The notes beneath the pieces are model-generated. The model did no database searches. It saw only the letters and a program-made list of their open reading frames with translations, and was not told the DNA's origin. Shown piece by piece: positions 9,501-21,721 of a DNA stretch of 64,000 nt. Numbering within the stretch: the first letter of the stretch is position 1; every line of letters starts with the position of its first letter. The stretch is from Prescottella agglutinans (GTDB taxonomy: Bacteria > Actinomycetota > Actinomycetes > Mycobacteriales > Mycobacteriaceae). Location: NCBI RefSeq assembly GCF_004011865.1, contig NZ_RKLP01000001.1:310001-374000 (forward strand), written 5' to 3'. The translations under genes were made by a program, and so were the position numbers.

Positions 9501-12500
9501 AAGACGGCCGGCCAGCAGGCGCCGACGACGACGTCGGGCACGGCCTTGCCGCTGGTGCTCACGGTCGCGGGCAGGCCGACACCGGTGACACCGGCATGGT
9601 CGGCGATCAGGTCCGGCGTCCACGCCAGGTTGATGTGCGCGGCACCGTTCTTGACCTGCGGCAGCTCCTGGCCGGCAGCGACACCGAGCAGTGCCGACAT
9701 CGACGCCTCGGCGTCGGCCTCGGTGATGACCGGGGCGCCGCCGTCACGGACGCTGGCGGGCACGGTGATGCGGATCTCGACGGCCTTGCCCAGCGCGAGC
9801 GGCACCGTCAGGTCGACGTGCTCGGCGTCGGCGACGACCAGGCGTGCGCCGGTCTTGTCGTGGCTCGCGACGGTGTCGGACTCGATGGTCCACTCGTCGA
9901 CCGCGCCGAGGCGGCGGACCGGGTTCTGCGTCAGGCGGGCGGCCCACCGCACGTCGGGGGCGGTGAGCACGGCGTCGAGCAGACCGGTGCCGAAGCCGCC
10001 GTGGCGGCGACCCGCGACGGGCGTCGGGGTGGCGCCGGCCGCGACCAGTTCGTCGGCCGTGGCCTTCTCGAACCGGTCGAGCAGTTCGCCGACGGGCTCG
10101 TCGACGCGGGTGATGCCGGCGACCGCGACGGTGCCGGGGATGATGCACACCTGGTCGGCGGTGTAGCGCGGATCGTGTGCCTGCCACAGCGAGTCCGAAC
10201 GCCACCAGCGGCGCACGTCACCGTCGACGACGGGCACGAAGTTGACCGGCTTGCCGGGGGTCTTGCACAGCGCGACGAAGAACGGGACGTCGGCCGGGTG
10301 CAGGACGGTGGTGGCGTAGTCGGGGTACGCGGCCTCGAGCGCGCACAGCGCCGCGAAGGGGCGGTCGAGCGTCGCGGCATCGGCGAACAGGGTCTGGATC
10401 GGGCCGCGGTCGTTGCGGTGCAGGCGGGCCTCGGCGCGCTGCAGCATCTCGCCGAAGCGGTCCCGCCACGACACGTCCAGCCACACCGACTGCGTCGCAT
10501 CGGCGATCGCGTCCTGCACGTCGCCGCCGCAGTCGAAGGCCTGCGGGGAGTCGACGCCCACGGCCAGCTCCAGGTAGCGGCGCAGCCACTGCTGGTAGGT
10601 CATGGTCGCGACGTCGCCGAAGTACGGCTTGGCGGTCACGTCGAGCGCGGCGATGATCTCGTCGCGGCGGTCCGCGACGGCCTCGGCGTCACCGGCGACC
10701 TCGTCGAGCAGGCGACCGGTGCGCGATGCCGCGTTGTCGATCTCGTGGATGTCGGCGCCGAGCTGGCTGCGGCCGGAAGCCATGCCGCCCTGCGCGGTGC
10801 CCGCACCGACCCAGTCGGGGGTGCCGGGGGTGTCGACGAGCATCTGCTTGACGTCGGCCGAGGTGGTGGCCTCGAGCGTCGCCATCGCGGCGGTGCCGAC
10901 GAGGATGCCGTCGAGCGGCATCGCCGGGAACCCGTAGGCGGTGGACCAGCGGCCGGTCAGGTAGTCGGCGGCCCGCTCGGGGGTGCCGATGCCGCCGCCG
11001 ACGCACAGCACCAGGTTGTCGCGGGCGCGCAGCTCGGCGTAGGTGTCGAGCAGCAGGTCGTCGAGGTCCTCCCACGAGTGGTGACCACCGGCGCGGCCGC
11101 CCTCGATGTGGACGATGACCGGGAAGTCCGGCACCTCGTTCGCGATGCGGATCACCGAGCGGATCTGCGCGACGGTGCCCGGCTTGAACGCGACGTAGCT
11201 GAAACCGGCCTCGGTCAGCTCGTCGATGATCGTGACGGCTTCCTCGAGCTCGGGGATGCCGGCGGTGACGACGACGCCGTCGAACGGGGCACCCGCGGCA
11301 CGGGCGCGCGGCACGAGGCGCTTGCCGCCCACGTGCAGCTTCCACAGGTACGGGTCCAGGAACATCGAGTTGAACTGGACGGCGCGACCCGGCTCGAGGA
11401 GGTCCTTCAGGCCCTCGACGTTGTCGGCGAAGATCTGCTCGGTGACCTGTCCGCCACCCGCCAGCTCGGCCCAGTGGCCGGCGTTGGCGGCCGCGGCGAC
11501 GATCGCGGGATCGACGGTCGTGGGGGTCATGCCCGCGAGCAGGATCGGCGAGCGTCCGGTCAGCTTCGTGAACGCGGTCTCGACGGCGACGCGGCCGTCG
11601 GGCAGCGCAACGGCCTTGGGCGCGAACTCGGTCCACGCGCGCGGCACCTCGGGTGCGGCACCCGGGGTGAGCAGGTTGCGGTGGCCGGCGCGGGTGGAGG
11701 CGGCGACAATTCCGACGCCCTGACCACGCAGACCCGTGGACGTCATGCGGGTGAGCAGGTCGCCGGGGCCCAGGTCCAGGATCCAGGCGGCGCCGGAGGC
11801 AATGGCGCCCTCGACCTCCTCGACCCAGTCGACCGGATCGACCAGCACGGCCTGCGCGAGCTCGCGCACCTGATCGGCGTCGAGCCCACAGCGAGCGGCC
11901 CAACCGCCGATGATGTCGACGGCCTCGTTCAGGGCCGGGTGGTGGAAGCCGACCTCGACGGACAGCGACTCGAAGACGGGCGAGAACACCGCGCCGCCAC
12001 GGGACTTGGCGTCGCGGGCACGGGTTTCGTCGGCCGCGATCTGCTCGCAACGCTGCTGCACGCGAGCAAGCTGCGCGGGCGGTCCGGCCAGCACGACGCG
12101 GCGGCGGCCGTTGCGGATCGCCATGACTGCGGAGCGCTCGGCGTCGACGCCCTCGCCCAGCTCGGCGACGATCGCGGCCAGGCGCTCGGGATCGACGTTG
12201 GAGACCGCGAGCATCGGCGAGCGATCCGCGGTGGCGATGATGCCGCGGCGGCGACCCACGAGCCCGGCGGCAGCGCCGATGAGCTGGGCGGTCGCGAGCA
12301 GCGCACCGTCGGCGGCGCCGGCCCCGGAGACCGCGGCGGCGGCGATGAGGCCCTGCGAGTGGCCGATCGTCGCGACCGGTGCGGTGACGGCCGGGTCCAG
12401 GCCCTGCTGCTGCAGTGCGCGCAGCGCGGCGAGCTGGGTGAGGAACACACCGGGCAGCGACACGGCGGCGGAGGTCAGCGCCGCCGCGGACGGGCCTGCG

Positions 12501-12847
12501 GGCGCGTCTTCATCGTCCGCGAGCTCCTGCTCGAGGATCCACGCGATCGGGTCGAATCCGACCGGGCGGACGACGAGGAGGTCCTGCGCGACCGGCTCGA
12601 GCATCGCGGCGGCCTCGTTCACCAGCTCGGTGAGCGTCGGCTCGAGTCCGCTGTCACGGGTGAGCTCGGCGAGCGCGCTCAGCCACGGGGCGCCCTGGCC
12701 GCCGAAGGCCAGCGCGTACGGCTCGCCGGCGCGGAGTCGGTCCACGAGCGGCCCCTGCGCGGCGGATCGGACCGGCGTCCGATCGGCACCGAACTGGCTG
12801 CGCTCCTTCGAGGTTCGTCCGTTTCCTGCAGTGTCGTCGATCGTCAC
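3548..12847 (-). CDS. fas: Type I fatty acid synthase (multifunctional)
   Basis: 3099 residues from a GTG at 12847, preceded by AGGAG 14 bases upstream; the frame stays open to 12958 but only this start has a ribosome site. Domain order follows mycobacterial FAS-I: acyltransferase (GHSQG, Ser near 164), FMN enoyl reductase (from about 430, ILLAGMTPTTVDP), MaoC-type dehydratase (SGDHNPIH near 1250), malonyl/palmitoyl transferase (GHSVGEY near 1460), acyl carrier domain (GVSSRRNQ near 1830), ketoreductase (VVTGASKGS near 2139), and ketosynthase with Cys near 2740, His in SKHDTS near 2889 and TGHAKG near 2931. An Ala/Pro-rich linker precedes the carrier domain. The cytosolic hexamer makes acyl-CoA primers for phospholipids and mycolic acids. 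No phosphopantetheinyl transferase domain is present; AcpS follows. Confidence 0.98.
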   Translation of the reverse strand: MTIDDTAGNGRTSKERSQFGADRTPVRSAAQGPLVDRLRAGEPYALAFGGQGAPWLSALAELTRDSGLEPTLTELVNEAAAMLEPVAQDLLVVRPVGFDPIAWILEQELADDEDAPAGPSAAALTSAAVSLPGVFLTQLAALRALQQQGLDPAVTAPVATIGHSQGLIAAAAVSGAGAADGALLATAQLIGAAAGLVGRRRGIIATADRSPMLAVSNVDPERLAAIVAELGEGVDAERSAVMAIRNGRRRVVLAGPPAQLARVQQRCEQIAADETRARDAKSRGGAVFSPVFESLSVEVGFHHPALNEAVDIIGGWAARCGLDADQVRELAQAVLVDPVDWVEEVEGAIASGAAWILDLGPGDLLTRMTSTGLRGQGVGIVAASTRAGHRNLLTPGAAPEVPRAWTEFAPKAVALPDGRVAVETAFTKLTGRSPILLAGMTPTTVDPAIVAAAANAGHWAELAGGGQVTEQIFADNVEGLKDLLEPGRAVQFNSMFLDPYLWKLHVGGKRLVPRARAAGAPFDGVVVTAGIPELEEAVTIIDELTEAGFSYVAFKPGTVAQIRSVIRIANEVPDFPVIVHIEGGRAGGHHSWEDLDDLLLDTYAELRARDNLVLCVGGGIGTPERAADYLTGRWSTAYGFPAMPLDGILVGTAAMATLEATTSADVKQMLVDTPGTPDWVGAGTAQGGMASGRSQLGADIHEIDNAASRTGRLLDEVAGDAEAVADRRDEIIAALDVTAKPYFGDVATMTYQQWLRRYLELAVGVDSPQAFDCGGDVQDAIADATQSVWLDVSWRDRFGEMLQRAEARLHRNDRGPIQTLFADAATLDRPFAALCALEAAYPDYATTVLHPADVPFFVALCKTPGKPVNFVPVVDGDVRRWWRSDSLWQAHDPRYTADQVCIIPGTVAVAGITRVDEPVGELLDRFEKATADELVAAGATPTPVAGRRHGGFGTGLLDAVLTAPDVRWAARLTQNPVRRLGAVDEWTIESDTVASHDKTGARLVVADAEHVDLTVPLALGKAVEIRITVPASVRDGGAPVITEADAEASMSALLGVAAGQELPQVKNGAAHINLAWTPDLIADHAGVTGVGLPATVSTSGKAVPDVVVGACWPAVFAALGAATTESGVHVIEGMLDLVHLDHAVNLVGELPSETSILVVRAEAGDVVDTDMGRVVEVRVEVGAMLGEGLDAPAVATLTERFAIRGRTGRSELADPARAGGSLSADVAETPRRRRRDLKMVAPRNMAAFARVSGDHNPIHTSDAAALLAGLGSPIVHGMWLSAAAQQAVIAVDPASKVPTRRLTAWTARFLGMVRPGAEIDVRVDRVATDRGDEIVEVGCRVDGDLVMVATGRTAAPKTVYAFPGQGIQRPGMGLDARSRSKAAREVWERADKHTREALGFSILAVVRDNPTLVRARGVEHRHPDGVLHLTQFTQVAMATLGVAQVAELRESGAFVEGSYLAGHSVGEYNALTAVAGVLPLEALLEVVFQRGSAMHELVPRDAAGRSDYRMAAIRPSQIGVADDELQAFVGGVADATGEFLQIVNLNLKGSQYAIAGTVKGLEALEREIDIRREAFGGKRAFILVPGIDVPFHSTVLRGGVDDFRAKLDELLPQDIDPSLLIGRYIPNLVPKLFNLGRDFVQEIADLVPSEQLQAVLADFDSWAARPVALTRVILVELLAWQFASPVRWIETQDLLFTDEIDGGLGVERFVEIGLGATPTVANLASQTLKLDEHSNTKVEVLNIEREASIVYSTDVDPAPVEDEEPEAPEASAAAAPAAAPVAAPAAPAGGPRPDDIAFKAADATKVLIALWTKLRPDQIGPADTIEALCDGVSSRRNQLLVDLGAELSLGAIDGAADADMGSLAVTVDRLARTYKPFGPVLSDSINDHLRKVFGPSGRRPAAIADRVKKVWELGDGWANHVTAEVALGTRDGSSVRGGAMGGLHEGAIADGAAVDALVDAAVQSVASRRGVAVSMPAAGGGAGGTVDAAALGEFTEAITGRNGVLASAARLVLEQLGFSESAAAAVAADDTALVDLVSAELGSDWPRLVAPAFDAKKAVLIDDRWATAREDLARGWTGEADLTVERFDGAGAAVAAHAQWWQQRATESGRTTLAEVYGRIAQVAVAPADETGQYTGEIAVVTGASKGSIAASVAGKLLGGGATVVVTTSRLDSERLGFYRKLYSANARAGAALWVVPANMASYTDVDALVEWVGNVQTETAGGAKKLVKEAMTPTMLFPFAAPRVAGELSDAGARAEMEMRVLLWSVERLIGGLSQIGYDRDVDTHLHVVLPGSPNRGLFGGDGAYGESKAALDAVVGRWSAERTWAERVTLVHALIGWVRGTGLMGGNDPMVEAVEAKGVRTWSTDEMATELLSSCTAEVKRAAAQAPRLVDLTGGLAEVDLDLPALAKEAAEAAEAAGKAKDEDAADANSIAALPAPPRIVDALDAPSWPELDVDPADLVVIVGAGELGPYGSSRTRFEMEVDEQLSAAGVLELAWNTGLVAWENDPKPGWYDVASGDLVPEEEIAERYHDTVVERCGIRTYGDEGAMVDNTAPLLTSVFIDKDLSFVVGSEAEARAFVDSDPENTVAAVDPESGDWTVTRKAGTEIRVPRKVKLTRTVGGQIPTGFDVTKWGIPADMAGSVDRVGLWNIVTTVDAFLTGGFTPSELLRWVHPAFVANTQGTGMGGMTSMRSLYIDTLLGESRANDILQEALPNVIAAHVVQSYVGGYGAMVHPVAACATAAVSVEEGVDKIKLGKAKLVVAGGFDDLGIEGIVGFGDMSATAKSDEMSAKGIADNRFSRANDRRRGGFVESAGGGTILLARGDLALEMGLPVLGVVAWAGSFADGVHTSIPAPGIGALGAGRGGQDSQLALSLNALGITADDISVVSKHDTSTAANDPNEAELHERLAASLGRSDGAPLFVISQKTLTGHAKGGAAAFQLIGLCQVLSQGVVPPNRSLDCVDDKMAEFSHLVWPRTPLRFGEQFPLKAGLLTSLGFGHVSGLIAVVHPQAFVESIPADQREAYLAQAQQRTIDGQRRLAAAMCGGDSLYERPADRRFGGDSVPAKAARQLEADMLLSEEARLGADDVYRAGKPGCQ

Positions 12848-12981
12848 TGAAGTTGAGTCCTCTCCTGGTTCCCTGACGGGAGGTAGGTCGTGGTCGGTCG
12901 CCCTCGGCAGAGCTGACGCGCGATGTCTCGGGACATCCACGGCACCCCTCGAACGCACTGGGAAAACAGCGAATTCGGGCT

Positions 12982-12987
12982 CGTCAA
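12982..12987 (-). promoter_or_regulatory. Possible -35 element of the fas promoter
   Basis: Read on the minus strand this is TTGACG, about 135 bases before the fas start codon. A matching -10 is not clear, so the start of transcription is uncertain. The first TGAGG-N4-CCTCA box lies 17 bases upstream of it, a suitable place for an activator. Confidence 0.35.
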
Positions 12988-13003
12988 GGTTGGCACAAAA
13001 TCA

Positions 13004-13017
13004 TGAGGAAAGCCTCA
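13004..13017. promoter_or_regulatory. Palindromic box 1 upstream of fas (TGAGG-N4-CCTCA)
   Basis: TGAGG AAAG CCTCA, followed by CGTT. The same 18-base pattern (tgaggaaaNcctcacgtt) recurs at 13146. Two identical palindromes in one intergenic region suggest binding sites for a dimeric regulator. By position a FasR-type regulator of fas is the natural candidate, but I cannot show this from sequence alone. Confidence 0.6.
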
Positions 13018-13084
13018 CGTTTGGTTTCGACCACACTTCCTACCAGCGGGTATCGAGTGACTTTGGCCACACAACACGGCACAA

Positions 13085-13119
13085 GTGACCCGCGGGTAGA
13101 CCACGTATGCGCGGGTCAC
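13085..13119. repeat. 10-base perfect inverted repeat in the fas upstream region
   Basis: GTGACCCGCG at 13085-13094 pairs perfectly with CGCGGGTCAC at 13110-13119, around a 15-base spacer. It sits between the two TGAGG boxes. It may be another operator or a hairpin that separates fas from the plus-strand gene. Confidence 0.55.
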
Positions 13120-13145
13120 GGCCCATGCGTGGACGTCCACAAACC

Positions 13146-13159
13146 TGAGGAAACCCTCA
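13146..13159. promoter_or_regulatory. Palindromic box 2 upstream of fas (TGAGG-N4-CCTCA)
   Basis: Second copy of the box at 13004, 142 bases away: TGAGG AAAC CCTCA, again followed by CGTT. It is 124 bases before the plus-strand gene at 13283, so it could affect either gene. The remaining intergenic bases to 13282 hold only a weak TACCGT (13244-13249) that could serve as -10 for the plus-strand gene. Confidence 0.6.
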
Positions 13160-13282
13160 CGTTGATTGTTACCAATTCGTGATCTGCTTGACGACAGGCC
13201 CGCGGCGTGCGGTCGGACCGGTCGCGCTGTCGGAGGCCGGCGCTACCGTGCGCCGTGTCAACCGAAATCCAGGGGGGAATTC

Positions 13283-13948
13283 ATGACCGCACCGGAGATC
13301 CACGCGCTCGTCGAACACATCGAGACCGTCCTGCCCCGCGATCGCTCGCACTGGCCATCGGGGTGGCCGCACGAGGCGGAGGCCGCACTGCTCGACGCGA
13401 TCTTCTCGGCCCGCGCCGCATACGGCACACCGACGTCCGGCGTTCGTCGGGTTGTCGCCAACTGGCGCGCCCACCGAGCCACCGCGCTCGACGACCTCGG
13501 CGCGTTGGCCGACTTCACCGACGCGCCGGATCATTTGGCGGAGATCCTCGACAACCGCCAGCGGGTACCCGGCAACTACACCACCAAGGCCGAGGCCGCC
13601 GCCCTCGCTGCGGCAGCGCTGGTCGAAGCGGGCATCGGCACAAGCAGTCGGATCGGCGACGGCCGCAGGGCCCGGGAGGTCATCGGCACGGTGCCGGGAC
13701 TCGGCGCCGCAACGTGGGAGACGTTCCTCCTGCGGCTGGGGCTCCTCGGCCCCGCGGCCCTCGACACGATCCGCGAGTTCACCGAGGAGGCCCTCGGCCC
13801 AGGCGAGTCACCCGTGACCGAGGCGGTCGCTCTCGAGCTGCTCGCCGCCGCGGCCCGGACCACCGACACCCCGCCGGCCGCCCTCGTCAATGCCGTCTGG
13901 CGGTACGGGCGCCGCCGCGCAAACGCACCGAAACCGTTGTCCGCGTAG
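13283..13948 (+). CDS. Conserved hypothetical protein with a helix-hairpin-helix-like motif
   Basis: 221 residues. The ATG at 13283 has a strong purine-rich ribosome site (AGGGGGGAATTC) and is preferred over upstream in-frame starts. The protein is mostly helical. VPGLGAATWETFLLRLGL in the second half resembles the hairpin of helix-hairpin-helix DNA-binding proteins (LPGVGxxTA in endonuclease III), which would suggest a DNA-repair-like role, but no catalytic residues of a glycosylase are evident. It is divergent from fas and may share regulatory sites with it. The family was not recognised with certainty. Confidence 0.7.
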   Translation: MTAPEIHALVEHIETVLPRDRSHWPSGWPHEAEAALLDAIFSARAAYGTPTSGVRRVVANWRAHRATALDDLGALADFTDAPDHLAEILDNRQRVPGNYTTKAEAAALAAAALVEAGIGTSSRIGDGRRAREVIGTVPGLGAATWETFLLRLGLLGPAALDTIREFTEEALGPGESPVTEAVALELLAAAARTTDTPPAALVNAVWRYGRRRANAPKPLSA

Positions 13949-14025
13949 CCGAATCACCTCGCGCGCACCGGTGGCCGGTCCTGCAGTTCAGGACCGGCCG
14001 CCGGTGGCGTAGGCTGACAACGCTC

Positions 14026-14110
<85 letters not shown>

Positions 14111-14136
14111 CGATCAGCTTCACGCAATCAGACGAA

Positions 14137-14169
14137 CGAACTCACGAACTCGGACGAGGTGTGAGTTCG
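14137..14169 (+). terminator. Hairpin after tRNA-Leu
   Basis: CGAACTCAC (14137-14145) pairs with GTGAGTTCG (14161-14169) around 15 bases, 27 bases beyond the tRNA. It is a plausible terminator. The rest of 14111-14320 shows no gene. Confidence 0.5.
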
Positions 14170-14320
14170 CTGTCGGCGGCCAGGTGGGCCGAGCCTGTCG
14201 ATCGCATCCCAGGACCGGCTGGCGGCCGGTGGACGAGGAATCCGATCGACTCACTCACTGAGATCCTGCTCTGCTTCGACGGTCGTCGAACAGGACGGGA
14301 GCGAAGGACAGAATGGTTGC

Positions 14321-15511
14321 GTGCAACGCGACAGAAGAGTCCTCGTCTCCTTCGCCGGCGGTCTCGGCCACCTCAATCCCATCCTTCCGATCGCACGTGC
14401 ACTCCGAACCGCCGGACACCGTATTGGTGTGTGCGGTCATGCGAGCATCGTCGACGGCATCGCCGGGTTCGACGCCCACTATCCGGTAGGCAGTCCCGCG
14501 TCGACTCCCGCAGGAGAGTCGACAGGCCGACTCGTCAAACCCGATTTGGACCACGAGTTCTCCGTGATCGGCACGCATTTCGCGGGCGCACTTGCCGCCC
14601 GGCGCTTCGGTCACGTTCGAGGCGTCATCGATCAGTGGGCACCGGATCTGGTGATCTGCGACGAGATGGACTTCGGGGCGATGCTCGCGGCCGAACAGGC
14701 CCAGGTCCCACGGGTCGTCGTCAACGTCATTGCATCCGGTGCCTTGACTCGCCTCGAACGCATCCGTGAGCCGTTGGCGCATCTCCGAGCAGTGCACGGG
14801 CTCCGAGACGATCCCACTGGTACCGAACTGATTCGGGATCTTGTCGTCTCCCCGTTTCCGCGCTCTTTCCGACACCCCGACTTCCCCCTACCCAGGAGCG
14901 CGGTATCCATCCGCCCCGAATCGGCGCCCGGCACCGGCCGGCATGCTGCCGTCGACTGGCTTGCTGCGGGTGACGAGCCGCGGCGGCTGTACCTAACGCT
15001 CGGAACCGTCTTCAACACCGAGTCCGGCGACTTGTTCACGCGCGTCCTCGAGGGATTGCGCACCCTTCCTGTGCGGGTCCTCGCGACCGTCGGCAACAAC
15101 ATCGATCCGGCGGCCATCCCCGTGGTCGCCGACAACGTCCGGGTCGAACGGTATGTACCGCAATCCGAAGTTCTGCCGCACTGCGACCTTGTCGTCAACC
15201 ACGCCGGGTCCGGAAGCGTCATCGGCGCGCTGACCCACGGTGTCCCGGTGATCGCCCTCCCCATGGGCGCAGACCAAGAGCTCAACGCCCAGCGCCTGAC
15301 CGCCCTCGATGCCGGAGTCACCCTCGATCCGATCACAATGTCGCCCGACGAGATCCGCGACGCCGCACTTACCACCCTGGCCTCGAAGTCCCTGCAGGAA
15401 GGAGCGCAGCGTCTGCGCGACGAGATCGCAGAGCTGCCCTGCCCAGCATCGATAACCACAGACTTGCAGAACCTGATGATGGGTCCGCCGGTACCAAGCA
15501 GTCCGTTGTAA
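14321..15511 (+). CDS. Glycosyltransferase, GT1 (UDP-glycosyltransferase / macrolide type)
   Basis: 396 residues from a GTG. The N-terminal FAGGLGHLNPILPIARAL is the glycine-rich loop and acceptor-side start of GT-B fold enzymes, with the His that acts as base in this family. The C-terminal half carries VNHAGSGSVIGALTHGVPVI, the nucleotide-sugar binding motif (HAGxGS...GVP), followed by PMGADQELNAQRL. Such enzymes glycosylate small lipophilic molecules, including macrolides and glycolipids. Codons are slightly less G/C-rich than in the housekeeping genes and the gene sits just after a tRNA, which fits an accessory origin. The acceptor is unknown. Confidence 0.85.
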   Translation: MQRDRRVLVSFAGGLGHLNPILPIARALRTAGHRIGVCGHASIVDGIAGFDAHYPVGSPASTPAGESTGRLVKPDLDHEFSVIGTHFAGALAARRFGHVRGVIDQWAPDLVICDEMDFGAMLAAEQAQVPRVVVNVIASGALTRLERIREPLAHLRAVHGLRDDPTGTELIRDLVVSPFPRSFRHPDFPLPRSAVSIRPESAPGTGRHAAVDWLAAGDEPRRLYLTLGTVFNTESGDLFTRVLEGLRTLPVRVLATVGNNIDPAAIPVVADNVRVERYVPQSEVLPHCDLVVNHAGSGSVIGALTHGVPVIALPMGADQELNAQRLTALDAGVTLDPITMSPDEIRDAALTTLASKSLQEGAQRLRDEIAELPCPASITTDLQNLMMGPPVPSSPL

Positions 15512-15636
15512 AGGATCAGCGTCCTGTTCGGCGGTCGTCATACAGGCCGGCATGTGAAGGGCAGTAACGGCTTTGTGGCGAAAGAAACCAGGGCGTGTCT
15601 CCCAAATGTGTGGCAGCCGACCTGAACACTGGGGGG

Positions 15637-16062
15637 ATGACGTCCGGTTCTGGACCTGACGCGTCAGCGCGTCGGCGAGAGATTGCCGACGCGCTGCGCG
15701 GATACCTTCGCGAAGCATCTGCGCAACCGGTGGCCCCACCAGCGCCGAAGTCAGATTCTTCAGGATGGTTTGCACCTGCGCCTGGCTCAGGCACTCAGCA
15801 GTACGGGCGTGAGCCTTGGACGAGCATGCGCGATGTCGAAGTCGAGGTCGTGGGCCCTGCCGTAGTTGTCTCGTTCACATGGCTTCCCGACGACGATCCT
15901 CAGCGGTCCTATGTCTTCGTTCTCCACGCCCCGGACTGGGATTCCGACACCAGCTCCGACTCCCTCATCACGAGACTCGACTTGCTCCTCGACTTTCCGA
16001 ATTGGCAAACTCGCGCCCTTCCCACCGGAGGCAACGTCTTCGTCGTTGTTCCTGCCCCATAG
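15637..16062 (+). CDS. Hypothetical protein
   Basis: 141 residues. The ATG at 15637 follows a run of six G; an upstream GTG in frame has no ribosome site. The first 60 residues are Ala/Pro/Ser-rich and look disordered apart from one helix (RRREIADALRGYLREA). The rest reads as a small alpha/beta domain with strands VEVEVVGPAVVVSFTWL and SYVFVLHAP, closing with GGNVFVVVPAP. I do not recognise a family. It converges on the micro-ORF array (45 bases between ends) and the area is lower in GC than the flanks. A partner role for the array is possible but unsupported. Confidence 0.6.
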   Translation: MTSGSGPDASARRREIADALRGYLREASAQPVAPPAPKSDSSGWFAPAPGSGTQQYGREPWTSMRDVEVEVVGPAVVVSFTWLPDDDPQRSYVFVLHAPDWDSDTSSDSLITRLDLLLDFPNWQTRALPTGGNVFVVVPAP

Positions 16063-16107
16063 TGCTCCAACCTCACAAGTTCACTCGCATTGCTGAGGTG
16101 CGTCCCC

Positions 16108-16209
16108 CTAGTTACAGCGGCCACCAAGTGAACATGGCAGCACGCTGATGAGCCACAGTCGCACGTCATCCGAGAGAAATGGAACGAACCAAACCCATGA
16201 ATCCATCAT
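16108..16209 (-). CDS. Micro-ORF E: 33-residue Trp/Cys peptide of a tandem family
   Basis: 33 residues from an ATG (two in tandem) with GAGAGGTGATC just before it. It has a Trp-rich first half (DSWVWFVPF), then DDVRLWLISVLPC and the tail C-S-L-G-G-R-C-N. Aligned from its second Met without gaps it matches micro-ORF B at 11 of 25 positions, including W, P, D-V-x-L-W-L and P-C. It is the last of five tiny ORFs on this strand, 94 bases after ORF D. Repeated similarity plus ribosome sites argue that it is translated. Function unknown; the two cysteines could form a disulfide or be modified. Confidence 0.6.
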   Translation of the reverse strand: MMDSWVWFVPFLSDDVRLWLISVLPCSLGGRCN

Positions 16210-16303
16210 GATCACCTCTCGGATGTTCAGGGGCAGCGCCCGTCGAAATCGCACGGGACAACTAGGGACCAAACCAGAACTCGCCTTGCCCGATGACGCC
16301 CCT

Positions 16304-16414
16304 TCAGTAGCACCAGCCGCCGAGCCAACAGGGCACGTTGTCGAGCGCCCACTGTCGCTGCTCGTCATTGAAGAACGACGGCCACATGAGCCAGTAGATC
16401 AGCGGGAAGTCCAT
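16304..16414 (-). CDS. Micro-ORF D: 36-residue Trp/Cys peptide of a tandem family
   Basis: 36 residues. The ATG overlaps the stop of ORF C (TGATG), indicating coupled translation, and a G-run (GGGGGTC) precedes it. The first half is rich in aromatic residues (LIYWLMWPSFF), the middle charged (NDEQRQW), and the end reads V-P-C-W-L-G-G-W-C-Y, the same C-x-L-G-G-x-C-x tail as ORF E. Six of the 36 residues, including the last, are Trp or Tyr in the final two thirds, which is unusual. Function unknown. Confidence 0.6.
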   Translation of the reverse strand: MDFPLIYWLMWPSFFNDEQRQWALDNVPCWLGGWCY

Positions 16415-16506
16415 CACCAGACCCCCAGAACGGCAAGGAAATCCACGACAGCGATCACCACGGGCACGAGCGGCCCCCAGAATGCGAGGTCATGCATCTC
16501 GATCAC
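16414..16506 (-). CDS. Micro-ORF C: 30-residue single-helix membrane peptide
   Basis: 30 residues from a GTG that overlaps the stop of ORF B in a GTGA four-base junction; its own stop overlaps the next start. After a short polar start (MIEMHDLAFW) the rest is one hydrophobic helix (GPLVPVVIAVVDFLAVLGVW) without cysteine. It differs from the four Cys-tailed neighbours and may be a membrane partner, immunity-like or export-related peptide; this is speculation. The tight overlaps on both sides support real translation. Confidence 0.55.
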   Translation of the reverse strand: MIEMHDLAFWGPLVPVVIAVVDFLAVLGVW

Positions 16507-16607
16507 CCGCAGCTCTGCCGGAAGGCGATGACACACGGATATGTGGCTGCCAGCCACAGCTTGACATCCCACGGCAGCAGCGGGATGTACCAGAACATGT
16601 CACCCAT
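16503..16607 (-). CDS. Micro-ORF B: 34-residue Trp/Cys peptide of a tandem family
   Basis: 34 residues from an ATG with GGAGG eight bases upstream, a near-ideal ribosome site. Order: DMFWYIPLLPWDVKLWL, then AATYPC and a tail C-x7-C-G. It shares M-x4-W-(Y/F)-(I/V)-P-x-L-x2-D-V-(K/R)-L-W-L-x4-P-C with ORF E. The stop overlaps the start of ORF C. The peptide has no leader-type or Sec signal cleavage site that I can see. Confidence 0.62.
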   Translation of the reverse strand: MGDMFWYIPLLPWDVKLWLAATYPCVIAFRQSCG

Positions 16608-16623
16608 CGCGATCGCCTCCAGG

Positions 16624-16734
16624 CTAGGGACAGTGGCCACCCCAGTCGCACCCGAACGTGTTGTACAGGATCCGCTGCCACAATTCAGGTAAAGGCAGCG
16701 TCCACATCCAGCCCTGCCCGAGCCATGGATACAC
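16624..16734 (-). CDS. Micro-ORF A: 36-residue Trp/Cys peptide, first of the array
   Basis: 36 residues from a GTG with GGAGG eight bases upstream, the same spacing as for ORF B. Sequence features: YPWLGQGWMWTLPLPELWQ at the start and the tail F-G-C-D-W-G-G-H-C-P, which has the C-x5-C-x-end pattern of ORFs D and E. It ends 16 bases before ORF B. The TetR gene upstream on the same strand ends at 16876, leaving about 140 bases in which a promoter for the array could lie; I see no convincing -35/-10 pair there. Confidence 0.58.
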   Translation of the reverse strand: MYPWLGQGWMWTLPLPELWQRILYNTFGCDWGGHCP

Positions 16735-16875
16735 GAGGCAGTCCTCCGCGCATGTGTCCCGACCTTGGATTCAGGTTAGACCCCGAACTCGCTGACGGTG
16801 GCTGAGTGGAAGCGGTGGTCGAGTGCGACGAACGAGGGTCTCGAACTCACGAGAGGTCGTGGCCTCGATTCCTGC

Positions 16876-17487
16876 CTATGCAGCCCGCTCCGCGGCGAGT
16901 GTGGCGAAGGATCGGCGCAGGAGGTCGACGGCGTCCACACCCTCGGACTCAGCCCAGGTGGTCAAAGCTATGTCGAAGCAGGCGAGTGCCGCCTGTACGA
17001 GTGTCTGCGCCCGCAACTCCGCGTAGTCACCGGCCAGACGTGCCTGCACGACGGGAACGAGCATGGTCGCCCAGGCCAGATGCTTCTCGAGGTTTCGGGC
17101 ACGGAGGGACGCGGTGCTGGTGAGCACGCGCATGGTCCGCTTGCTGCGTTGCTCGTCCTCGCCGCTACGCGGTTGAGACACAAGCGATTCGAAGGAGATC
17201 CGCAGCGAGACCAGGGCCGGTTCGTCGACGGGTCGGGAGGCGAGGACGTCTCGGACGAACTCGCCCCAGCGGGTCAGGTCGCCGATGACCGCGTCTTCCT
17301 TGGCCGGGAAGTAGCGGTGGAAGCTTCGGGCGGAGATGCCCACCGCGGTGGCGATCTGCTCGACGGTGACCGAGTCGAAGCCGTGCTCGGCGAACAGGTC
17401 GACCGCGACCTCGGAGATGCGTGTGCGCACGGCTTCACGGGTGATGTCGCGCAAGCCCGGGGTCGCCGGCGTCGAGGAACTTTCCAC
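16876..17487 (-). CDS. TetR family transcriptional regulator
   Basis: 203 residues from a GTG at 17487; the frame remains open far upstream but that part is antisense to the aldo-keto reductase. The N-terminal helix-turn-helix is clear (VTVEQIATAVGISARSFHRYF near residues 43-62), and PAKEDAVIGDLTRWGEFV follows. The C-terminal half is helical and holds LARRSFATLAAERAA-like end helices for ligand binding and dimer formation. It is divergent from the aldo-keto reductase gene with 75 bases between, including a palindrome at 17512-17526, so it most likely represses both genes. Ligand unknown. Confidence 0.88.
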   Translation of the reverse strand: MESSSTPATPGLRDITREAVRTRISEVAVDLFAEHGFDSVTVEQIATAVGISARSFHRYFPAKEDAVIGDLTRWGEFVRDVLASRPVDEPALVSLRISFESLVSQPRSGEDEQRSKRTMRVLTSTASLRARNLEKHLAWATMLVPVVQARLAGDYAELRAQTLVQAALACFDIALTTWAESEGVDAVDLLRRSFATLAAERAA

Positions 17488-17511
17488 GTGCGCAGCGTAC
17501 CTGGACAAAGT

Positions 17512-17526
17512 TGTCAGTCTCTGACA
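17512..17526. promoter_or_regulatory. Palindromic operator between tetR and aldo-keto reductase
   Basis: TGTCAG TCT CTGACA, a perfect 6-base inverted repeat with a 3-base centre, lies between the divergent starts (24 bases from tetR, 36 from the reductase). This is the usual place and shape of a TetR operator. Confidence 0.6.
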
Positions 17527-17562
17527 GATTGGGCGGAGCATGACAACATCGAAGGGGGATCC

Positions 17563-18498
17563 ATGGACAAGCGCACGCTCGGCAAGCAGGGTCTGACCGT
17601 TTCCGCGCTCGGCTACGGCGCGATGGGCACGGCCATCGGCTACGGCCGGGCCGACGACACCGAGTCGATCGCCGCCATCCGCAGGGCACACGAAATCGGT
17701 GTGACGATGTTCGACACCGCCGAGATGTACGGCTGGGGCGAGGGCGAGAAGCTGCTCGGCCGCGCGTTGGCACCGGTGCGCGACGACGTCGTCATCGCCA
17801 CGAAGTTCGGCCTCACCCGCTCGTTCGGGTGCGACTCGCGTCCCGAGCACATCCGCGAGGTTGTCGACGCCAGCCTGCGCAATCTCGGCGTCGACACGAT
17901 CGACGTGCTCTACCAGCACCGCCCCGACCCGAACGTGCCCATCGAGGACGTGGTCGGCACGATGAAGGAATTCGTCGACGCCGGCAAGGTGAGGTACCTG
18001 GGGCTGTCCGAAGCCGACGAAGCCACCATCCGCGCCGCGCACGCGGTGCATCCGATCTCGGTGTTGCAGAGCGAGTACTCGATCTTCGCGCGCGGGGCCG
18101 AAGCCCTGTTCCCTGTCCTGGAGGAACTCGGTGTCGGCTTCGTCGCCTACTCGCCGCTGGGCCGCGGTTTCCTCAGCGGCGCCGTGGCGCCCCGTGAACA
18201 CTACGACGCCAACGATTTCCGTCAGCACATCCCGTGGTGGGCCCCGGAGAACTTCGCCGCCAACCTCGCGATCGTCGACGAACTGACCGAACTCGCCCGC
18301 CGCAAGAACGCCACCCTGGCCCAGCTCTCGTTGGCGTGGCTCCTGGATCGCCGGGACTATGTCGTGCCGATCCCCGGTTCTCGCAACCCGTCCCGGGTGG
18401 AGCAGAACGTCGCGGCCGCCGACCTGGTTCTGTCCGACGACGACCTGGCCGCGATCGACCGTGTCGCCGCCGACGGCGGCGTCGGCAACCGCATGTAG
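17563..18498 (+). CDS. Aldo/keto reductase
   Basis: 311 residues; the ATG at 17563 has GAAGGGGG six bases upstream and replaces a much longer open frame. The fold is the (alpha/beta)8 barrel of the AKR superfamily. The catalytic tetrad is visible: Asp51 and Tyr56 in FDTAEMYGWGEGE, Lys81 in VVIATKFG, and His119 in DVLYQHRPDP. VPIPGSRNPSRVEQNVAAA near the end is the NADPH-binding signature. It reduces aldehydes or ketones with NADPH; family members close to this one (AKR13/YakC-like) act on small aldehydes. It should be controlled by the divergent TetR protein. Confidence 0.92.
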   Translation: MDKRTLGKQGLTVSALGYGAMGTAIGYGRADDTESIAAIRRAHEIGVTMFDTAEMYGWGEGEKLLGRALAPVRDDVVIATKFGLTRSFGCDSRPEHIREVVDASLRNLGVDTIDVLYQHRPDPNVPIEDVVGTMKEFVDAGKVRYLGLSEADEATIRAAHAVHPISVLQSEYSIFARGAEALFPVLEELGVGFVAYSPLGRGFLSGAVAPREHYDANDFRQHIPWWAPENFAANLAIVDELTELARRKNATLAQLSLAWLLDRRDYVVPIPGSRNPSRVEQNVAAADLVLSDDDLAAIDRVAADGGVGNRM

Positions 18499-18528
18499 CG
18501 CGGTGGTCTCGTCAGTGCGGCGTCGCGG

Positions 18529-19083
18529 TCAATCGCTTCGACCTGCGGAAACAGAAGGAACATCCGCGCCCTCGCTTGCACGATCCTCGTCCGTCCACCG
18601 ATCGATGTGCCGGCACAGCTGGCCGATCGGGCCGATCACCACGTCCCCGTGCGGATCCACCCAGACCGGTTCGGCCGCGTGCAGGCGGGGAACGAGCAGA
18701 TGGCGGCCCCGGCTGGGCCACTGGACGAAGTCGTAGCCGGCGAGCTCGCCCTGAACCGTGTCGGCAACCCACACCGCCGCCTCGCCGAACGTCGCATCCA
18801 TGGTCAGTCCGTGGCCACAGCTGAAGCCGCTGATGCCGCGGGCGCCCTGCCAACCGATCGAGACGTAGTACTCGCCGTTGATCGCGAAGTCCCATTCGAG
18901 TCGGTCGACATTCACGTCCCTGCCGAATCTCAGGCAGCGGAAGTCGCGGGCAACCGCGGCCAGGGCCCGCACCCATGGTCCGGGCGGGTCGAAACCGGGT
19001 CCGTCGAGCACCCCGGAGACGCTGTCGGCCAGGGGGATGCGCCAGGTCAAGCTGTCGTGTTTCCACGGGTCCGGGAGCGGCAT
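18529..19083 (-). CDS. Hypothetical protein
   Basis: 184 residues. The ATG at 19083 is chosen because GAGG lies 10 bases before it; an ATG six codons earlier has no ribosome site. The protein is soluble, with many Trp, Asp and Gly residues (WEFAINGEYYVSIGWQ-like central strands, then a His-rich WPSRGRHLLVPRLHAAEP). No motif that I recognise. It ends 30 bases from the convergent aldo-keto reductase and begins 40 bases after the YidC gene on the same strand. Function unknown. Confidence 0.6.
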   Translation of the reverse strand: MPLPDPWKHDSLTWRIPLADSVSGVLDGPGFDPPGPWVRALAAVARDFRCLRFGRDVNVDRLEWDFAINGEYYVSIGWQGARGISGFSCGHGLTMDATFGEAAVWVADTVQGELAGYDFVQWPSRGRHLLVPRLHAAEPVWVDPHGDVVIGPIGQLCRHIDRWTDEDRASEGADVPSVSAGRSD

Positions 19084-19122
19084 ACCGCCATCCTCACCCA
19101 TGAGGGTCGGCGCGACGGGCGG

Positions 19123-20082
19123 TCAGCGCCGGTTCGCCGTCTTGCGGTTCTGTTTCCGCGGCGGCGTCTTCCGGTTCCCCGTGGGCCGGGCACCGGGTTT
19201 GGGCGCGTGGACTTGCCGCTGTTGCGCGAGTTCCCGCTGCTTGGCGGCTACTTCCCGGTCGATACGGGCGAACACGATGTGCTGCTGCACGTACGTCCAG
19301 ACGTTGTTGCTCACCCAGTACAGCAGGATCGCGATCATCAGGAACGGTCCACCGACGAGAACTCCGAGCGGGAAGACCCACAGCATGAGCTTGTTCATCA
19401 TCGCCGCCTGGGGGCCCGCTGCCGCTTCCGTGCTCTGCCGCGCGACCGACGCTCGTGCGTTGAAGTGCGTGGCGACCGCGGCGATCACCATCAGGGGAAT
19501 CGCCACGGCCGCGATCGTGGCGACGGTCGGGACACCTCCGTGGGCCGCGAACGACGCCAGTGTGCTCTCCGGTGTGGTGATCGCCGCCGAGATCGGCGCA
19601 CCGAACAATCGCGCGCTGAGGAACGACTGCACATCGGTCGCGCTGAAGACGTAGTTCGCGGTGTGCGCGTTGGCTTCCGCGGTCATTCCGAGTTGGCCCG
19701 CACCGGTCCCGGTGCGGTTGAACGAGCGCAGGACGTGCAGCAGCGCGATGAACACCGGCGTCTGGACCAGCACCGGCAGGCAGCCCATCAAGGGATTGAA
19801 GCCGTGTTCCTTCTGGAGTTTCTGCATCTCCAGCGCCATGCGCTGGCGGTCGTCGGCGTACTTCTTCTGCAGGGCCTTGATCTGCGGTTGCAGTTCCCGC
19901 ATCTGGAGGCTCGTGCGTATCTGCCGGATCGCAGGCCCGAGCAGCAGCAAACGCAGGGTGAACACCAGGAACACCACCGCCAGCGCCCAGGCGAAGCCGC
20001 TGTCCGGACCGAGTATCGAGCCGAACGCTTTGTGCCAGAACCACAGGATCCCGGACACGGGGTAGTAGATGAAGTCGAGCAT
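19123..20082 (-). CDS. yidC: YidC/Oxa1 family membrane protein insertase (probable second paralog)
   Basis: 319 residues from an ATG with GAAGAGG upstream. Order: an N-terminal helix near residues 5-25, a second helix ([19 protein letters not shown]), a basic cytosolic loop ([20 protein letters not shown]), the conserved [19 protein letters not shown] segment, further helices, the [13 protein letters not shown] segment, and a strongly basic tail rich in Arg, Lys and Pro. These are the marks of YidC/Oxa1 insertases, which place proteins in the inner membrane alone or with SecYEG. In actinobacteria the main yidC normally lies with rnpA near the origin; this copy is elsewhere, next to a DUF6412-like gene, so it is likely a second, specialised insertase. 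Confidence 0.9.
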
Positions 20083-20207
20083 GAGCACCTCTTCGCCGCA
20101 CGACGCGACGCAACGGGACATCGTGCGGATGGGTGAGTGCGCCGTAGATGGTCGGAGCGACACGGCGCAGGTGGACAGGGGTGACGGGCGCACCGCACAG
20201 CGAGGAG

Positions 20208-20531
20208 CTATGCGGCGGTCAGCACCTGCCCGGGTGCTCGGGGCTGGCGAGGACGGCCGGGGGTGTTCGGGGCGCTCTGCCGGCGGAACGCGCCGCGCAG
20301 GTGCCGCTCCTCGTGGGGAGGTCCGACAGCAGGTGCCGTCAGCAGGTGCAGCTGAGACAGCGACCCGCGCCCGCCGACAGCCAAGATCACCGCGATCGCG
20401 ACGGCGGTGCCGGCGATCGCGGCCGGGCCGTCGCCGGCGGACGTCGTCGCCATCACCAATGTCAGCACGGCGACCCACGTGAGCTGAACGAGGTTCAGCT
20501 TCCGCGTGAGTATCGACCGGATCCGTGCCAT
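20208..20531 (-). CDS. DUF6412-like small membrane protein
   Basis: 107 residues from an ATG at 20531. It has two hydrophobic helices ([17 protein letters not shown] and [17 protein letters not shown]), then a basic tail ([20 protein letters not shown]). This matches the small DUF6412-type proteins that I recall beside the extra yidC gene of actinobacteria. It precedes yidC on the same strand with 125 bases between, so the two are probably one unit. Role unknown; a helper of the insertase is inference. Confidence 0.65.
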
Positions 20532-20731
20532 GACAAGCAGCGTACCGAGACGCCGGCAGATGGCGCCGATACGGGCCGTGCAGCCGCTTCGCGCGAGACA
20601 CCGACAGGACCTGCGCGGGTCTGCCCGCCCGGTGTCGATGCTGCAACCATTCCCGCGACTCGCGGACGACGCACCCATTCGTCCGGCTAGCGTTCGAGTG
20701 TCCCGGTTCCGCCGCAGACAGGGGGACGACG

Positions 20732-21721
20732 GTGTCCACACGTGTTCTCTCGGACTCGACCTACACCCACGTCGTCGACGTGTCCGTGGACAGGGTCGAC
20801 ATCGGCGAGTGGCTGTTCTCGCTCTCGGAGGCGGAGTACCGGCGGTGCTGTCCCCCGGACCACATCACGGCCGGCGTCGGCACCGACGCCGGCGGACACC
20901 CGCTGTGGATCGGTGTGGAGACGCTCGGCGGCTCCGTCCTGATCCACCGATTCGTCGGCGAGGTCAGCGAGCCGCGCCGGTGCCGGATGGTCTCGAAGTC
21001 GGACGCCGTCGCCGCCGAGGGGCGGACGACTCTCGAGGTGACCTGGGAACTGCGCGCCGAGCCCACCGACGACGGCCGGTGCATCGTCACCGATCGGATC
21101 GTCGTCGCGCCCACCGGCGAGTACTTCGCGTTCCTCGACCGCCACGGCATCACCTTCGAGGACGCCGCGGCGGCGTGCCACACCGCGTGCAACGATCACA
21201 ACCGGCGCGAGACCCCGCTGCTCGCCGCGAGCATCGCGCGCCGGGCGTCGTCGTCGAACGGGCGACACGCGGCCGGCCCCGTTGCCGCCGTGACCATCCG
21301 GCGCGCCCCCTCGACCACCGACGGCGAGGCCGCGAAGGCCGTGGTGCGCCGGAACGCCGAGCAGGTGCAGGGCGGCGGCGACTTCGCGGTGTTCGACGAG
21401 CTGTTCGCCGACGACTACGTCGACCACACCCCGCAGCCGGGGACCAGCCCGGACAAGGCCGGGACCAGACTGCTCTACCAGTCGCTGCGGGCCGCGTTCC
21501 CGGACTTCCACGCCGACATCCACTGGCAGTCGGTGGACGGCGACCTGGTGACGACCTACAAGACGTACCACGGCACGCACCGGGGCGCGTTCATGGGGAT
21601 CGCCCCCACCGGGCGTGCGGTGCAGTTCGAGACCGTCGACGCGATGCGGGTTCGCGACGGCAGGATCGTCGAGCACTGGGGCGTGGCGAATCGGCTGTCA
21701 CTGATGGAGCAGCTCGGCTGA
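20732..21721 (+). CDS. Two-domain protein with C-terminal SnoaL-like polyketide cyclase fold
   Basis: 329 residues from a GTG after GGGGGACGACG. The C-terminal half (from about 200) is a SnoaL/ester-cyclase-like domain: [27 protein letters not shown], then [32 protein letters not shown] and [14 protein letters not shown], the usual order of this fold. The N-terminal 170 residues look like a separate beta-rich domain ([10 protein letters not shown]... HRFVGEV) that I do not recognise with certainty. Some SnoaL-like proteins are isomerases or hydrolases, others only bind ligands. The gene stands alone, convergent on the next one. Confidence 0.7.

Follow-up and report, generated by a model that had tools for sequence, protein, structure and literature searches.

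A cassette of five micro-ORFs on the minus strand, at 16108-16734 of the 64,000-nt stretch of Prescottella agglutinans DNA analysed here (the window), belongs to a two-class family of short, Trp-rich peptides whose arrays recur in related genomes, on plasmids and in one phage. That the ORFs are coding and the family real is virtually certain. All five ORFs lie in a row as a first-pass annotation had placed them. Peptide A (16624-16734, minus strand; 36 aa from a GTG start) ends in CDWGGHCP, peptide D (16304-16414, minus; 36 aa) in CWLGGWCY and peptide E (16108-16206, minus; 32 aa, or 33 aa with the ATG at 16209) in CSLGGRCN, confirming the C-x-(W/L)-G-G-x-C-x tail that had been read in these three. 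Peptide B (16503-16607, minus; 34 aa) has its two Cys in a C-x7-C tail (terminal C-x7-CG), so the paired C-terminal Cys claimed for A, B, D and E is present in each, and these four make up the class I members of the window. Peptide C (16414-16497, minus; 27 aa) has no Cys and carries an FWGP motif. Its reading as a degenerate Cys peptide was rejected, as it is a member of a second, Cys-pair-free class common to the arrays (class II).

Translation signals were largely as first described. GGAGG stands exactly 8 nt 5' of the starts of A and B, and the good Shine-Dalgarno site reported for E is GAGGTGATC; the corresponding region of C is GGTGATC. Of the stop/start overlaps proposed to join B, C and D, the TGATG at C/D holds, whereas the GTGA at B/C exists only if C begins at the GTG at 16506 (30 aa); with the ATG start, which is the one used in homologues and gives 27 aa, B and C are separated by a 5-nt gap. 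Between D and E, at about 16227-16277 on the minus strand, the sequence VVPCDFDGRCP, probably what is left of a class I tail of the A type, gave a weak profile match (E 0.0069) and was left out of the class I ORF counts below. Against the class I profile, peptides A, B and D scored E 2.1e-10, 1.5e-8 and 9.5e-17, and peptide C scored E 2.5e-9 against the class II profile, each of the four being itself a row of its profile. Peptide C also has 74% identity to a class II peptide of another genome (G006). Within the cassette B and E align with 38% identity over 29 residues, and E as a single query matched B, D and a further copy on contig 22 of the same genome.

The first-pass annotation had proposed a duplicated peptide family, not chance, and had named homologous arrays in related genomes and purifying selection between copies as checks; related genomes do have homologous arrays, with homologues of the peptides in 11 of 14 Prescottella genomes and in a few Rhodococcus, and dN/dS was mostly below 1 among orthologues, both of which support the proposal. 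Peptide E has orthologues in two other species (genomes G008 and G013; E 1.6e-17 and 3.5e-17, 84% identity) with dN/dS of 0.12 and 0.03. The ratio was 0.08 for peptide A (one homologue, that of G002, with six synonymous and two nonsynonymous changes), 0.13 and 0.24 for C (two homologues), 0.18-0.48 for B (five homologues) and 0.18-0.72 for D (eight homologues, the highest value being against one distant homologue). Across the family, values within subtypes were mostly 0.02-0.4, with dS near saturation in many pairs, and distant D-type pairs reached 0.73. Exceptions were the pair L028/L032 (1.15), in which the C-terminal frame of the L028 copy is shifted, and LDP class II pairs at 1.45 and 1.81, each with one synonymous change. 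Substitutions at codon positions 1, 2 and 3 were distributed 40:28:153 in 16 of 17 ungapped pairs, the seventeenth having been dropped as out of register; the pairs share sequences and hence are not independent.

Chance is an alternative for ORFs of this size, since short ORFs are abundant (107 of at least 25 aa overlap 12000-21000), but cross-species homology and selection contradict it and a shuffled-profile control weighs against it, so that we reject chance ORFs as an explanation of the cassette and regard their probability as practically negligible. A column-shuffled 22-row profile reached at best E 0.043 in the 14 Prescottella genomes; such a profile has no rows of its own to find, and the fair comparison is with non-row matches, which reach E 1.2e-16 in other genera among 401 genomes of the bacterial family. 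The same care applies throughout, as the profiles A1, A3, A4 and A5 and the nucleotide model R1 (below) were built from members in the same genomes and their own rows are among the hits. Shine-Dalgarno matches of at least 6 nt preceded 58 of 107 starts of the peptide family compared to 63 of 2181 random ATGs, and matches of at least 8 nt preceded 32 of 107 compared to 9 of 2181, a contrast somewhat flattered by the choice of starts, which was the best one within about 10 codons for family ORFs and a single ATG for controls.

In 37 loci chosen for the presence of class I, 74 ORFs of class I and 33 of class II were recognised at an i-Evalue <0.02, on 102 distinct matched stretches; fragments are counted in all these figures. 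Both classes occur together in 20 of the 37 loci, with no class II ORF detected by profile in the other 17; 27 loci hold at least two peptides and 10 a single peptide ORF. The hallmark of class I is its pair of C-terminal Cys, typically PCxLGGxC, which is invariant in 33 aligned members that were themselves picked in part by the Cys pair. Class II (18 aligned) is without the C-terminal pair and often has an F/W/Y-x-G-P motif. The 51 aligned peptides are 22-41 aa long, with a mean Trp content of 11.6% in class I and 8.2% in class II and a mean net charge of -1.2 and -1.0, respectively; a single peptide of the 51 is positively charged (+2), the other 50 being neutral or negative. Sums on the Wimley-White interface scale were positive, a preference for membrane interfaces, and no signal peptide was seen by eye. 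Helical amphipathicity was not above that of shuffled peptides (median shuffle p 0.51 for class I and 0.36 for class II), and only four of the 33 class I members and three of the 18 class II members exceeded their shuffles at p <0.05. In an AlphaFold2 model of peptide D (pLDDT 74) a pair of short helices leads into the Cys loop. One class I copy (L024 9826-9963) has lost its frame ahead of the Cys tail, which suggests turnover in the arrays.

The family has a narrow and patchy distribution. With a 19-row class I profile, 11 of the 14 Prescottella genomes gave matches at E <=5e-9, while G003, G010 and G011 gave weak ones only (E 0.12-0.8). At E <=0.001, class I was found in 19 of the 401 genomes (4 of 31 genera of one family) and class II in 11 of 401, nine of which have class I too. 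An order-wide scan with the class I profile gave no convincing match outside this one family; three of 396 other genomes had matches at E 1.2e-3 to 7.4e-3. A pattern scan covering 84,980 species, each represented by a single genome, returned 11 loci, nine of them in Rhodococcus or Prescottella. The others were a locus on a 5.8-kb contig labelled Variovorax, which is probably contamination and is included in the 37 loci, and a 9-residue match in a metagenome-assembled genome, which was taken as chance and left out of them.

The first-pass statement that no described system of this form was known held for the libraries searched, none of which gave a usable match. Pfam had no match for the five window peptides and, for the 33 class I members, one weak match only (YrhK, E 0.075). 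NCBIfam had none for the six peptides searched, PDB sequences matched the peptide profiles at E 0.48-8.9 only, and PADLOC and PHROGs assigned no family to the three peptides scanned. No description of the family was found in largely open-access literature searched from titles and abstracts, which does not establish its absence from print. The micro-peptide family and its architecture are considered new, and its mechanism may prove to be of a known kind.

A tblastn search of 72,556 plasmid records matched class I in 37 (31 Prescottella, 6 Rhodococcus) and class II in 36 (35 Prescottella, 1 Rhodococcus), with an annotated feature under the match in 1 of 37 and 4 of 36 records, respectively. On pVAPA1037 a class I peptide with a class II copy on either side is flanked by recombinase and ParB genes, and the first of the two class II copies has no canonical start codon there. 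On pVAPB1593 a B-type peptide stands between two class II peptides, pVAPN2012 has class I followed by class II, and pVAPN1572 has three class II peptides and one of class I. Outside the vap island, pVAPN is described as unrelated to pVAPA and pVAPB (PMC5434932), so the cassette was probably acquired more than once. In Rhodococcus phage Madraxi (PP978820, R. equi host) three such ORFs, unannotated in the phage record, follow one another in the tail region on the strand opposite annotated gene 4. The class II profile recognises two of them (E 8.5e-8 and 0.0017) and the third is similar by eye. Gene 4 itself (L185; PP978820.1, record positions 2123-2536) has a third-position GC of 0.64 compared to 0.83-0.92 in three neighbours, and on this ground is probably a false annotation. 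Madraxi was the sole match among 50,697 phage records for two class II queries, the second of which was Madraxi's own peptide. A D-type class I query matched nothing in the phage records or in IMG/VR, and a B-type class I query gave only matches at E 2-3 in Acinetobacter and Vibrio phages, which were taken as chance. To judge from these positions the cassettes are mobile, being carried by the R. equi plasmids pVAPA, pVAPB and pVAPN, by one phage and at a chromosomal cargo site.

Type I toxins (Hok, Fst and the like) are very short hydrophobic peptides found on plasmids, phage and chromosomes. Addiction peptides, or membrane peptides resembling such toxins, might likewise act under antisense RNA control to maintain the plasmids, phage and cargo islands that carry the arrays. 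The spread over plasmids, a phage and a cargo site would suit this, as would the position of the array between recombinase and ParB genes on pVAPA and pVAPB and, in two more loci, recombinase-like genes at a distance of about 1 kb. We consider this quite unlikely. Repressed single toxins look different from coupled arrays in which five or six distinct peptides have near-perfect Shine-Dalgarno sites, and Rfam found tRNA only in 13900-18000 of the window.

By comparison with related genomes, the interval between tRNA-Leu and a TetR-type regulator gene (14026-16892) is a variable cargo site. Its left edge is the tRNA-Leu (14026-14110, plus strand; ARAGORN and Rfam) and its right edge the regulator gene (16876-17500, start approximate, minus strand; named by reading the sequence), a stretch kept in six other Prescottella genomes with 76-88% DNA identity. 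Homology to G002, G010 and G012 stops at 14112-14158 and resumes at 16878-16892, in the 3' end of the TetR gene, and these breaks define about 2.75 kb of cargo in the window, consisting of an EryCIII-like/UDP glycosyltransferase gene (14321-15511, plus; Pfam PF06722, E 1.2e-26), a 155-aa ORF with no assigned family (15595-16062, plus; sub-threshold Pfam match, E 0.13) that is convergent with the array, and the array itself. The cargo is absent from the same site in two relatives, where the gap in homology measures about 76 bases (G002) and 30 bases (G010); in G012 it is 924 bases with two other predicted genes. Three of the six relatives with the TetR stretch (G001, G008 and G013) have a different left flank and are uninformative on the empty site. 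No convincing attachment repeats were found at the cargo edges.

A shared element, GGTCTARCCTG...GGTCGGGAC, lies at 16756-16812 on the minus strand and, in alignments, sits 5' of A-type genes. The window site scored E 5.3e-8 with model R1 and is one of the eight copies on which the model was trained. R1 found nine sites at E <=1e-6 in the 14 genomes, all in peptide islands, with the next best at E 0.106; seven of the nine are training sites and two are new (G001:C69 and G012:C27). The G012 site is on the opposite strand, about 0.9 kb from the nearest peptide ORF, and all other strong sites are upstream of peptide ORFs or their remnants. The element is possibly a promoter with a TANNNT -10 box plus a leader, a reading its sequence allows, as TARCCT would fit such a box; a scan of 15500-17000 for sigma-70-like promoters found none. 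The element was not found in the fetched stretches of four plasmids (of three R. equi types) and phage Madraxi (best E 0.55) and is thus not universal. At one further locus (L118 4966-9071) the element occurs with one class II ORF and no class I ORF, about 3.4 kb from a gene for the putative secreted protein described below.

This small protein, about 140 aa long, has a putative signal peptide and a conserved pair of Cys, and its gene lies 0-497 nt from a peptide ORF in 10 of the 37 loci. The window array is without it, and the same genome has one copy on contig 21. It was rejected as an obligate partner on its wider spread (matches in 12 of 14 Prescottella genomes, and in 108 of the 401 genomes and 14 of the 31 genera) and on its many copies with no peptide ORF nearby by the profiles, which give it the appearance of an older family, part of which was recruited to the cassettes. 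Pfam had no match for four such small putative secreted proteins, NCBIfam gave two sub-cut-off matches only (E 0.026 and 0.21), PHROGs one weak match (E 0.91) and PDB sequences none; an AlphaFold2 model was poor (pLDDT 44) and mostly strands. A possible third peptide type (VPEWxYxxxYQLWLWG and relatives) was seen at L028 11019-11099, L028 10624-10743 and L082 519-641, with one copy directly before the putative secreted-protein gene in both L028 and L082. Small proteins of this kind, with a putative signal peptide, an HWxNLSxGA motif and no Pfam match, fall into two related families (e.g., L024 10481-10930 and L030 12398-12814), of which the first is the one matched in 108 of the 401 genomes.

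Short Trp- and Cys-rich ORFs 5' of the putative secreted-protein gene in some loci could be regulatory leader peptides or attenuators, whose sequence would be irrelevant beyond its translation. We regard this as highly improbable, given that 27 of the 37 class I loci have no such gene, that the window array converges on a plus-strand ORF, and that the amino-acid sequence is kept along the peptides across species. Neighbour genes were clustered (32 stretches, simple gene calling, at least 70 aa, with Pfam covering a minority of neighbours), and the families seen in at least two stretches no more than 1500 nt from a peptide ORF comprised orthologous flanks, transposases, recombinases, the two related small proteins that have putative signal peptides, and a few families without a name; the 155-aa ORF of the window is absent from this clustering, having been missed by the gene caller. 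The result bears on whether the peptides are secreted signals or modified products (a pheromone, a RiPP or a peptide glycosylated by the neighbouring glycosyltransferase), for which the C-terminal two-Cys loop and the glycosyltransferase in the window cargo might speak. That glycosyltransferase has no relative in the other 31 clustered stretches and no modification enzyme recurs near the arrays among the neighbours covered, which leaves this alternative very doubtful. Beside arrays in P. subtropica (L027 8178-8453 and about 11590-11747), GDSGGPA serine-protease-like fragments were recognised by eye near transposase-like genes.

Our preferred reading, held tentatively and at less than even confidence, is that the peptides leave the cell without a leader and that both classes assemble in the membrane or mycomembrane, acting like PorA/PorH. 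The cassette would be an operon-like, translationally coupled set of two-class leaderless micro-peptides made in large amounts. The peptides would cross the cytoplasmic membrane without a Sec signal and come to sit at or in the cell membrane or mycomembrane, where a disulfide between the C-terminal Cys of class I would close a short loop. Hetero-oligomers of the two classes would alter envelope permeability or surface, the mode of action proposed for PorA/PorH of Corynebacterium. A membrane-interfacial location is the probable part of this scheme; export and the disulfide are evenly balanced, and the two-class assembly in the envelope is the most conjectural step. PorA, PorH and ProtX are small, helical and without an identifiable signal sequence, with PorH and PorA in one operon, according to PMC12632848 and PMC9671496, and the lengths given in PMC12632848, PMC5944148 and PMC3792995 are 45 aa for PorA, 57 aa for PorH, 40 aa for PorACj and 37 aa for PorACur. 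The micro-peptides are likewise short, show no Sec signal sequence by eye and come from mycolic-acid bacteria. They differ in that an amphipathic helix with a heptad pattern has been proposed for PorA/PorH and PorACj, whereas their own amphipathicity is no higher than that of shuffles; in that the Corynebacterium locus lies between GroEL2 and PPK2 (PMC3792995), whereas the window array lies between tRNA-Leu and TetR; and in forming mobile arrays of up to five or six. A PorACj-derived peptide has a Cys at position 24 (PMC9474448), compared to the invariant Cys pair of class I. These features, with no noteworthy match in Pfam, NCBIfam or PDB, set the micro-peptides apart, and because the amphipathic helix and the GroEL2/PPK2 locus, two defining features, were not found we do not file them as PorA/PorH members. 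Short porins are not obviously needed by these bacteria, since the channels reported for R. corynebacteroides and R. ruber resemble MspA and have signal peptides in R. ruber (PMC9233653).

The main rival is a leaderless bacteriocin, or set of secreted membrane-active toxins, permeabilising competitors by multi-peptide action, which we judge unlikely. The peptides are short, leaderless, Trp-rich, multi-peptide, accessory and mobile, and in the first three respects resemble the plasmid-borne aureocin A53. According to PMC11580447, however, aureocin A53 is a highly cationic peptide of 51 residues with two actinobacterial relatives of 52 residues, whereas the micro-peptides have 22-41 aa, are mostly acidic and not cationic, and in class I carry paired Cys. 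Among genes of at least 70 aa in the 32 stretches, neither transporter nor immunity families recurred near the arrays, a survey that smaller or divergent immunity genes could escape, and PMC11580447 describes leaderless bacteriocin clusters as having no class-defining protein. The patchy, mobile distribution fits an accessory weapon or defence equally well as a porin. Returning to a PorA/PorH-like role in the envelope, the two-class complexes might form a new kind of mobile system with which, in Prescottella and Rhodococcus, conjugative plasmids, chromosomal cargo islands and a phage reshape the mycomembrane of their host, perhaps to keep out competing phages or plasmids, although we offer this as a speculation with the odds well against it. 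Corynebacterial phage Cog reportedly requires ProtX and PorA (PMC9671496), and foreign short mycomembrane peptides could therefore plausibly block or alter entry.

More than 100 ORF instances of this family in 37 loci are almost unannotated in studied genomes, including the plasmids pVAPA, pVAPB and pVAPN. Their presence on conjugative plasmids, in a phage and at a chromosomal cargo site suggests an accessory role, which may lie in the cell envelope. If the favoured mechanism is true, the family would join PorA/PorH as a further case of tiny proteins that are exported with no known signal.
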